Assembly: GCA_002238505.1 (NCBI GenBank)
Contig: MPMM01000001.1
Coordinates: forward strand, 434,001-498,000
Direction of reading: 5' to 3'
DNA: 64,000 bases
Source: SAR202 cluster bacterium bin22
GTDB taxonomy: Bacteria > Chloroflexota > Dehalococcoidia > Lucifugimonadales > UBA3495
Shown here one piece after another: positions 15,243-18,026 of the stretch. The notes under the pieces are model-generated. The model saw only the letters and a program-made list of their open reading frames with translations. It made no database searches and was not told the DNA's origin. Position numbers and translations under genes: made by a program. Position 1 is the first letter of the stretch. Every line of letters starts with the position of its first letter.

Positions 15243-15280
15243 AGAGCAGGTGCGGGTTACCCATGCACACCTGCTCTTTT
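15243..15280. terminator. Hairpin terminator between nusA and cysM
   Basis: AGAGCAGGTG ... CACCTGCTCTTTTT-type 10-bp stem. Confidence 0.75.
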
Positions 15281-15364: not shown

Positions 15365-16303
15365 CTACCACCAGATTTTGCCCTGGACGTCATCCTCCAG
15401 CTCTTCGTATTCCTTTGTCCATAAACTGGTGCTGAGGTATTTCCAGCCACCATCGGCCAGCAGGCAAACGATGTTGCCACTGTCCATACGTTCAGCTTGC
15501 CGCATAGCTCCGTAAACCACCGAGCCGGAGGAAATACCGGCAAAAATGCCTTCCTCGTGCAGTAGTTCCTTGGTGGTGCGGAAGGCGGGCAGGCTGCCTA
15601 CCAGGAGTCGGGAATCCAGCAAGTTGATGTCCAGGATGGGCGGGATATATCCGTCTTCCAATCGCCGGAGGCCGGATATGAAGTCGTCGGGTTCCGGTGC
15701 TACCGCAACAATGCGCACGTCAGCATTGTGCTCTCTCAGACTTCGGGCGACCCCCATGAGGGTTCCGCCGGTGCCCAGTCCGGCCACAAAAGTTGTGACA
15801 TCAGGAACGGCTTCGATGATTTCGGGGCCGGTAGTTTCATAGTGGGCGTCAGGGTTGCCCCGGTTGCCGTACTGGTACATCAAAAGGTAATCATGGGGAT
15901 TTTGCGCGGCCATTTCCTGGGCCACTTCAATGGACCCGTTGCTACCCTTTTCGCCATCCGAGAAAACTATCTCCGCGCCATAGGCATAAAGCAACTGGCT
16001 ACGCTCCTCGCTGACATTCTCGGGCATGACTACTTTGACCTTGTAGCCCTTCAGGCGACCAATCATGGCAAGCGAAATGCCGGTATTTCCGCTGGTTGGT
16101 TCCAGTATCGTTCGGCTGGAGGAAATCTCCCCGTCGGCCTCGGCTCGCTCAATCATTTTGAGGGCGATCCGATCCTTGACGCTGCCCGTTGGGTTCTGGC
16201 CTTCCAGCTTGGCAAAGATACGCACCTCAGGTTTGGGACTGAGGTGCTGTAACTCCACCATTGGAGTATTGCCTATGGTGGCCAGAATGCCCTTGTATGC
16301 CAT
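15365..16303 (-). CDS. cysM: Cysteine synthase, CysM-like
   Basis: GILATIGNTPMVELQ, EGQNPTGSVKDRIA, EPTSGNTGISLAMI, GLGTGGTLMGV; C-terminus ADGGWKYLST...QGKIWW resembles mycobacterial CysM tail. Confidence 0.92.
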   Translation of the reverse strand: MAYKGILATIGNTPMVELQHLSPKPEVRIFAKLEGQNPTGSVKDRIALKMIERAEADGEISSSRTILEPTSGNTGISLAMIGRLKGYKVKVVMPENVSEERSQLLYAYGAEIVFSDGEKGSNGSIEVAQEMAAQNPHDYLLMYQYGNRGNPDAHYETTGPEIIEAVPDVTTFVAGLGTGGTLMGVARSLREHNADVRIVAVAPEPDDFISGLRRLEDGYIPPILDINLLDSRLLVGSLPAFRTTKELLHEEGIFAGISSGSVVYGAMRQAERMDSGNIVCLLADGGWKYLSTSLWTKEYEELEDDVQGKIWW

Positions 16304-16368
16304 GCGAGTAACCAAATGCCTTGCTATTCCCTGCCTTCTACTGCCTGGTTGAGGTAATCTCCGGAGCT

Positions 16369-17211
16369 CTAATTGTCGGCGACTCCCGCAACCTCTGGAG
16401 CTTCCAGTCCGCAGAAGATTTCGTAGTCAATCAATTCGGTTACCGTGGGGTTGTCACCGCACAGAGGGCAGGCCGGATTGCGCTTCAACTTGACCTCTCG
16501 GAAGGTCATGCTCAAGGCGTCAACCAGCAGTAACCTGGAGGTCAGGCTCTCGCCAATACCGAGGAAATGCTTGAGAGCCTCGGTAGCCTGAATGCTTCCT
16601 ACCAGTCCGGTCAGGGCTCCCAGCACACCGGCTTCTGCGCAGTTGGGCACCATGCCCGGGGGAGGCGGAGACGGAAACAGACAGCGGTAGCATCCCTGTC
16701 CTGGTTGGAACACGGTGGCCTGGCCGTCGAAGATAAGTATGCTGCCGTCCACCAGGGTCTTGTTCAGCAGGTAGCAGGCGTCGTTGACGAGATAACGAGT
16801 GGCGAAGTTATCGGCGCCATTAATCACCAGGTCGTACTGGCTGATAATGTCCATGGCGTTGTCCGACTCCAGCCGCTCCTCGTGGGGAATAACATTTACG
16901 TCTGGATTGTAGGCGTGAATATTGTCGATGGCCGACTGGAGCTTCGGCCTGCCAATGTCGCCGGTATGGTGGAGGATCTGACGCTGAAGATTGGAAATCT
17001 CCACGACGTCAAAATCCACTATTCCTACCGTACCTACACCGGCCAGCGCCAGGTATATGGCGGAAGGTGAACCCAGCCCACCGGCGCCCACAATCAGGGC
17101 CTTGGACTGCATCAGTCTGCGTTGTCCGGCGCTGCCTACGTCGCCCATTATTATGTGGCGGCTGTAGCGCTTTACTTGTTCGGGAGTCAATGCAAGAGGT
17201 TGCTGAGTCAT
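16369..17211 (-). CDS. moeB: ThiF/MoeB family adenylyltransferase (E1-like)
   Basis: RYSRHIIMGDVGSAGQRRLMQSKALIVGAGGLGSPSAIYLALAGVGTVGIVDFDVVEISNLQRQILH; CYRCLFP; CPLCG. Confidence 0.93.
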   Translation of the reverse strand: MTQQPLALTPEQVKRYSRHIIMGDVGSAGQRRLMQSKALIVGAGGLGSPSAIYLALAGVGTVGIVDFDVVEISNLQRQILHHTGDIGRPKLQSAIDNIHAYNPDVNVIPHEERLESDNAMDIISQYDLVINGADNFATRYLVNDACYLLNKTLVDGSILIFDGQATVFQPGQGCYRCLFPSPPPPGMVPNCAEAGVLGALTGLVGSIQATEALKHFLGIGESLTSRLLLVDALSMTFREVKLKRNPACPLCGDNPTVTELIDYEIFCGLEAPEVAGVADN

Positions 17212-17332
17212 ATGGACTTTTTCCTCCTAATGTCGGGGTCTGTACGCCCTGTCCAATTCTCCAGGGAGTCGGATAACCCCGGACTGGTTATAGAGTGTCG
17301 CCTTGCCCACAGGTGATGTAATTTGGGCCAAC

Positions 17333-17379
17333 AAAAAACCCGCACCCCAAGTGGGCTGCCCGTTATGGGCGGGTGCAGG
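17333..17379 (-). terminator. Intrinsic terminator in moeB-cysM leader (attenuator candidate)
   Basis: Minus strand CCTGCACCC-GCCCATAACGGGCAGCCCACTTG-GGGTGCGGGTTTTTT; located upstream of the moeB start codon. Confidence 0.8.
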
Positions 17380-17406
17380 CTTCGTTAATTAGCGTCAGCC
17401 AGCCCC

Positions 17407-17430
17407 CTATGTGCGGGGACAGGTACACAT
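17407..17430 (-). CDS. Putative cysteine leader peptide MCTCPRT*
   Basis: ATG TGT ACC TGT CCC CGC ACA TAG between promoter and terminator of moeB-cysM. Confidence 0.5.
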   Translation of the reverse strand: MCTCPRT

Positions 17431-17471
17431 GCAAATTCGTTCTTTCCGGATAGGATTCATTACTGCGCTAG

Positions 17472-17500
17472 AGTCTATTCTGGGGCGACTTCATTGTCAA
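17472..17500 (-). promoter_or_regulatory. Promoter of moeB-cysM leader
   Basis: Minus strand TTGACA-N17-TAGACT. Confidence 0.65.
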
Positions 17501-17597: not shown

Positions 17598-18026
17598 TTA
17601 AACATTCTGCGCTGAAAGATACATCTGCCTCTGTGCCAGGTGTTCAAGAGTAATGTTCGCGAGAACGTTCTCAATGGCTTCTTCAACCGACTTCCAGATT
17701 TCCTGCTGGGCGCAGGAATCAGCGAAAATGCAGTCGGTAGCGTAGGAAAGGCAGTCCAGGGGGGACGAGTTGTTATCCAGCGTCGTCATGATCATGTGGA
17801 GGTTTATGGTCGCGGGGTCCATCGCTAGTTTGTGACCGCCCTGGGGGCCCCTGCGACTTTCAACAAAGCCAAAACGGTTCAAAGTCGTCATCAACTGAAC
17901 CAGGTAGGATTCAGGGATTCCCTGCTTGGAGGCGATATCGGAGGTGTGCACCTGCCCTTCTCCGTAGTGCATTGCCAGTTCCACCAGGGCACGGACGCCA
18001 TAGTCCACTTTCATGGGAATTTTCAT
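17598..18026 (-). CDS. Rrf2 family transcriptional regulator
   Basis: MKVDYGVRALVELAMHYGEGQVHTSDIASKQGIPESYLVQLMTTLNRFGFVESRRGPQGGHKLA; C-X6-C-X5-C. Confidence 0.92.
   Translation of the reverse strand: MKIPMKVDYGVRALVELAMHYGEGQVHTSDIASKQGIPESYLVQLMTTLNRFGFVESRRGPQGGHKLAMDPATINLHMIMTTLDNNSSPLDCLSYATDCIFADSCAQQEIWKSVEEAIENVLANITLEHLAQRQMYLSAQNV

Follow-up and report, generated by a model that had tools for sequence, protein, structure and literature searches.

A candidate cysteine-responsive transcription attenuator upstream of moeB-cysM in a SAR202 cluster bacterium of the Chloroflexota

Background

The classical attenuators of the trp/his type follow a four-segment logic, in which a 1:2 helix, a 2:3 helix and a 3:4 helix compete in the leader RNA. 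With respect to cysteine, an upstream ORF carrying Cys codons and followed by a terminator has been predicted before cysS in Rhodobacterales (the uORFC-8-2 motif, PMC8632094). In addition, a 2005 study predicted leader ORFs with Cys codons, but with no obvious terminators, for Mycobacterium and its relatives (PMC1262725), and two later papers describe the polycysteine leaderless ORFs of mycobacteria as attenuators of translation (PMC13236596 and PMC9094748, citing Canestrari 2020).

The leader studied here resembles each of these systems in part. As in the trp/his attenuators, the regulatory codons overlap segment 1 and the stop codon lies at the edge of segment 2; unlike in those attenuators, the regulatory amino acid is Cys, the phylum is a different one, and the ORF appears to begin directly at the RNA 5' end or very near it, with no Shine-Dalgarno sequence. 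By description, the uORFC-8-2 motif likewise combines a short ORF, Cys codons within the first stem, a U-tract terminator and predicted transcription attenuation by cysteine. However, that motif precedes a tRNA synthetase gene (cysS) in alphaproteobacteria and has tandem Cys codons at about positions 14-15, whereas the present leader occurs in Chloroflexota before moeB-cysM and sulfite reductase genes, has an alternating C-x-C-x-C pattern and is near-leaderless. The mycobacterial polycysteine ORFs share with it a Cys-rich ORF before sulfur or cysteine genes, leaderless there and probably leaderless or nearly so here, and the occurrence of several loci per genome under what would be one cysteine signal. 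Their output is translation and they have no obvious terminators, whereas leaders of the present type have a conserved terminator and antiterminator; their Cys codons are consecutive, whereas the moeB leaders read C-x-C-x-C, with short runs only in some relatives.

An earlier note on this DNA had proposed a cysteine-responsive leader-peptide attenuator, and this proved to be the best-supported reading given the conserved frame, Cys codons, terminator and antiterminator. We estimate a probability of roughly 0.87 that the moeB-cysM leader works as a ribosome-mediated transcription attenuator with charged tRNA-Cys as the signal sensed. The principle of attenuation is already known; in the open-access literature we found no report of leader-peptide attenuation in Chloroflexi, and as far as we found, a cysteine attenuator would be new for the Chloroflexota.

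Gene order and promoter

The window is the whole stretch of 64,000 nucleotides that was analysed. The relatives of its genome were assembled from metagenomes and carry the labels SAR202 cluster, Dehalococcoidia or Chloroflexi. On the minus strand, an Rrf2-family regulator gene is followed by the leader, a MoeB/ThiF-family adenylyltransferase gene, a CysM-type cysteine synthase gene, a hairpin and nusA, with the following features:

17598..18026, minus strand: Rrf2-family regulator gene, upstream of the leader and moeB
17500-17495, minus strand: -35 box TTGACA, kept in 54 of the 55 leaders with a located promoter and start, and also in L023
17477-17472, minus strand: -10 box TAGACT, separated from the -35 box by a 17-nt spacer; relatives have TAGACT or a close variant with a spacer of 17-18
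17228-17223, minus strand: Shine-Dalgarno sequence AGGAGG, preceding the moeB ATG at 17211
16369..17211, minus strand: moeB, MoeB/ThiF-family adenylyltransferase, predicted first regulated gene
15365..16315, minus strand: cysM, cysteine synthase, the next gene after moeB
15243..15277, minus strand: hairpin and T-rich stretch 3' of cysM, a probable operon end with a putative terminator role

The promoter TTGACA-N17-TAGACT named in the earlier note is present at the place given for it on the minus strand and is the sole promoter-like site of the region (0.3 expected from shuffles); the AGGAGG, the moeB start and the position of cysM were also confirmed. Among solved structures, Mycobacterium tuberculosis CysM, whose deposition names it an O-phosphoserine sulfhydrylase, comes closest to the CysM of the window (E about 1e-97; the group that follows reaches 1e-73). 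M. tuberculosis CysM draws its sulfur from a ThiS-like carrier, which is loaded by a MoeB-type enzyme. In the window genome, the ThiS family and the JAB family have five matches each, and four of the JAB matches exceed the cut-off.

The leader reading frame

Two features define the coding part of the leader:

17407..17460, minus strand: leader ORF encoding MNPIRKERICMCTCPRT and a stop, 17 codons with 3 Cys; near-leaderless, its ATG at 17460 lying 11 nt past the -10 box
17419..17433, minus strand: Cys codons TGC (17433-17431), TGT (17427-17425) and TGT (17421-17419), predicted to be regulatory

The string ATG TGT ACC TGT CCC CGC ACA TAG, which the earlier note took for a complete leader ORF of seven codons with two Cys, is indeed present at 17430-17407, but it is merely the tail of the 17-codon leader. 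The ATG at its head was rejected as the start, as it reads ACG, AGT, ACC, GCT and so on in relatives, and the ATG at 17460 is conserved instead.

In aligned relatives, the conserved frame reads Cys-x-Cys-Thr/Ala-Cys-Pro-x-Thr-stop, with the first Cys found in about half of them. Among 54 leaders, whose selection rested in part on a motif containing the Cys codons, the last two Cys codons specify Cys in 54/54 and the first in 29/54. In the same motif-selected set, the frequency of Cys codons is 0.18 in frame versus 0.03 and 0.01 in the other two frames, and the 15 codons before the ORF end are free of stops in the Cys frame in all 54 leaders, while a stop is present in the other frames in 29 and 17 of the 54, respectively. 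Conservation of the Cys codons in relatives, suggested earlier as a check, was thus observed, with wobble variation within the codons.

Because circularity was to be avoided, the start codon was assessed from the promoter: once the promoter had been placed, the ATG or GTG that followed it was taken whatever its frame. In 54 of 55 leaders, the first start codon past the -10 box shares the frame of the Cys codons, at distances of 27 to 69 nt, and the single out-of-frame leader, L040, has a decayed appearance. When relatives were walked upstream in frame, the start codon usually lay 8-11 nt past the -10 box. L023 has only a TTG at the start position, and a promoter was looked for in L041 and not found. 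Because the ATG is very close to the promoter, the leader mRNA is probably leaderless or has few untranslated bases. In an in-silico survey, leaderless genes were reported in 4 of 12 Chloroflexi genomes (PMC3160421).

Competing RNA helices

Four conserved RNA segments can form three competing helices, namely a protector (1:2), an antiterminator (2:3) and a terminator (3:4):

17415..17424, minus strand: segment 1, ACCTGTCCCC, arm of the protector, sharing bases with the last Cys codon
17398..17407, minus strand: segment 2, GGGGGCTGGC, partner of segment 1 or segment 3, overlapping the stop codon
17380-17371, minus strand: segment 3, GCCTGCACCC, 5' arm of the terminator and partner in the antiterminator; conserved form GCCTGCGCCC
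17348-17339, minus strand: segment 4, GGGGTGCGGG, 3' arm of the terminator, followed by T6 at 17338-17333

The conserved form of segment 2 is GGGGGCNGGC, which begins inside the stop codon, and that of segment 4 is GGG(N)GCGCAGG followed by U's. The hairpin CCCC-GCACATA-GGGG recognised earlier exists, but it is only the core of a longer helix between ACCTGTCCCC and GGGGGCNGG. The intrinsic terminator stood as described, with the arms of segments 3 and 4 and the T6 tract, and in relatives it is conserved with compensatory changes; a simple terminator scan missed it in the window because its loop is long and nested. The antiterminator had to be reassigned. The closest relative, L002, no longer has the pairing of GGGCTG with CAGCCC put forward in the earlier note, as its loop reads GGGCAACCC. 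What competes with the terminator in conserved form is GGGGGCNGGC, which pairs with the 5' arm of the terminator itself, GCCTGCGCCC. An antiterminator is conserved in relatives, as anticipated, but the identity of its strands differs.

In fixed columns, covariation of helix 1:2 was marginal, partly because indels shift the register. Therefore, an exchange test was used, which set the pairing energy of each sequence's own segments against the energies reached when segments were swapped among 24 dissimilar moeB leaders. With kinship uncorrected, the within-sequence pairing was favoured for 1:2 (z=-5.6, 0/5000 exchanges as good), 2:3 (z=-3.4, 5/5000) and 3:4 (z=-3.1, 5/5000), and the control pairs 1:3, 2:4 and 1:4 were at the chance level. 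Column counts gave 95% of cells paired for the terminator, with a covariation score matched by 0/500 shuffles, and 93% paired for the antiterminator versus at most 54% when it was slid. Paired changes include CAC/GTG in place of CGC/GCG in the terminator and CCG/CGG in place of CCC/GGG in helix 1:2 of L023. Folding of the whole window leader alone gave a weak signal (z = -1.98). The evidence that appears to go beyond chance is conservation, that is, the frame in 54/55 leaders, the matched pairing and the presence of another copy elsewhere in this genome.

A structured leader with a terminator ahead of an amino-acid biosynthesis operon could also be a metabolite-binding riboswitch or a T-box that contains a small ORF by chance. 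However, there is no conserved aptamer-like core, since the conserved part consists only of the ORF end and the four pairing segments; the interval between segments 2 and 3 is variable, and the ORF frame is kept in 54 of 55 leaders. A search with Rfam covariance models returned no family match, only a chance isrK hit (E 0.67). We consider this explanation extremely improbable.

Predicted mechanism of attenuation

The locus combines codons for the product amino acid in a short ORF, a terminator between this ORF and the first gene, mutually exclusive antiterminator and protector helices (in the moeB leaders), and downstream genes that, by homology, make or supply cysteine. From these features we infer leader translation, ribosome stalling, termination in vivo and a response to cysteine, as follows. 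The short near-leaderless ORF would be translated behind RNA polymerase. When cysteine is ample, the ribosome would get to the stop codon and cover segment 2, so that terminator 3:4 would form and transcription would end ahead of moeB-cysM. When Cys-tRNA is scarce, the ribosome would stall on the Cys codons and cover segment 1; segments 2 and 3 would then pair, blocking the terminator, and the moeB-cysM operon would be read through. In the absence of translation, 1:2 would form and termination would be favoured.

The positions of the ribosome were modelled in 54 leaders for the stage before segment 4 is made, the ribosome hiding the RNA as far as 12 nt beyond the first base of its A-site codon. 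Helix 2:3 forms in 47/54 modelled leaders when the ribosome stands on the first invariant Cys codon and in 49/54 when it stands on the second, but in 0/54 when it stands on the stop codon, which follows from the position of the stop at the margin of segment 2. In every modelled leader, the terminator hairpin reaches about -15 kcal/mol or better and is accompanied by a U-tract. In ribosome-free minimum-energy folds before segment 4, 2:3 replaces 1:2 in about one-third of the leaders, and the untranslated state may therefore be leaky.

The near-leaderless Cys ORF before sulfur genes, as in mycobacteria (PMC13236596; PMC9094748), would also suit translation attenuation of the mycobacterial type, in which stalling on the leader exposes the ribosome-binding site of moeB and the hairpin with its U-tract does not function as a terminator. 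This scenario leaves a hairpin with a U-tract in 54/54 modelled leaders, with compensatory change, to be accounted for, and the ribosome-binding site of moeB in the window is about 105 nt past the terminator, outside the conserved structure. We consider it highly improbable, and control of transcription remains our preferred reading.

A second leader and a predicted small cysteine regulon

The same genome contains a second Cys leader (L142, G000:C19:4500-11200; motif at G000:C19:10483-10505, minus strand), which encodes MLVNNLRTCTCTCPPS and a stop. It has its own promoter and terminator and precedes a nitrite/sulfite reductase-family gene, which is followed after a short gap by a HemD-like gene. 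On the close orthologue in L143, the domains are NIR_SIR and HEM4, and the best solved relative of the L143 NIR_SIR orthologue is M. tuberculosis NirA (1zj8), which is a sulfite reductase. Since a leader of the same kind precedes both, the moeB-cysM and sulfite-reductase/hemD operons form a predicted small cysteine regulon.

In total, 19 sulfite-reductase leaders were examined, L142 among them, with segment 3 assigned by anchoring on the terminator arm. The exchange test revealed matched change in the terminator (z=-4.9) and in 1:2 (z=-2.6); no matched change was found in 2:3 (z=+0.2), though this helix is stable. L146, L147, L157, L158 and L159 have lost the TAG, and their peptides are extended by 4 or 6 codons, which places the stop 12 or 18 nt further downstream, at the far edge of segment 2. 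A ribosome at the shifted stop would still cover segment 2.

PAPS reductase (PF01507) was sought in the whole window genome (G000, 97% complete) and was not found. Because there is no PF01507 match despite the presence of a sulfite reductase-like gene, this bacterium may not reduce sulfate by the usual route.

Distribution of the element and the adjoining regulator

An RNA model built from the moeB leaders matched 46 of the 50 genomes of the family, mostly twice per genome, and also matched scattered other families of the order. Most matches in other families are Cys leaders, which lie ahead of sulfite reductase (f2, f12 and f24), ahead of PAPS reductase (f12 and f27) or, in f31, ahead of a TSUP-like exporter gene with PAPS reductase next, all of these genes being recognised from sequence. 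The match in L220 (G187) has no Cys ORF and was taken as a false positive, and L211, at a contig end, was left out of the Cys-leader judgement. Outside the family, the element was found upstream of moeB in G096 only. A scan for Cys leaders in moeB regions without the motif gave 1/43, with 0.45 expected. Upstream of sulfite reductase in samples of the class and phylum, mostly from other orders, a Cys-rich ORF was found in 3/40 regions, with 0.7 expected; because of this count, the element is taken to be largely confined to the order.

The synteny of Rrf2, moeB and cysM is broader than the leader. Many relatives keep Rrf2-moeB without the element, and in L003 (2880-3030), whose MoeB is 93% identical, the gap between Rrf2 and moeB is just 94 bp and contains no leader. 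On this distribution, the synteny is judged to predate the leader.

CymR and IscR act on cysteine or iron-sulfur genes. The imperfect dyad CCTGTCCCC...GGGGGCAGG could accordingly be a DNA operator for the adjoining, IscR/CymR-like Rrf2-family regulator, with the Cys codons incidental; the gene of this regulator is the immediate upstream neighbour, and its synteny with moeB-cysM recurs widely. However, the changes in the dyad preserve pairing and the dyad overlaps a conserved reading frame. In addition, the element also occurs before sulfite reductase, where no adjoining Rrf2 gene was recognised by inspection, and it is missing from the many relatives with Rrf2-moeB noted above. An operator would furthermore leave the terminator and antiterminator unexplained. 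We therefore regard it as highly improbable that an operator replaces the ribosome-mediated attenuator, and Rrf2 is possibly a second, separate control of the moeB-cysM operon.

Implications and evolution of the leader

Under the attenuator reading, the locus would provide a complete, comparatively supported cysteine transcription attenuator for biosynthesis genes, comprising sensor codons, protector, antiterminator and terminator, and would link up a small cysteine regulon in marine bacteria, most of which are uncultured. The reading also predicts that the NirA-like enzyme of SAR202-type bacteria is an assimilatory sulfite reductase and that their MoeB-CysM serves cysteine synthesis.

Because the near-leaderless sensor is like that of mycobacteria and the output is different, evolution between the two outputs is testable. 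It is conceivable, though we think it unlikely, that near-leaderless Cys-leader control is an old trait shared by Chloroflexota and Actinobacteria, with one sensor and a switched output rather than two inventions. If so, control would fall on genes of matching type in both (those for CysM, NirA-type sulfite reductase and PAPS reductase), with a terminator as the output in one phylum and exposure of the ribosome-binding site in the other.

Conservation in some leaders appears to extend beyond the Cys codons in a way that the attenuator model leaves unexplained: an N-terminal RFxDDLFHLC, placed before the Cys codons, is common to L210, L212, L213, L214 and L218, which belong to other families and precede differing operons.
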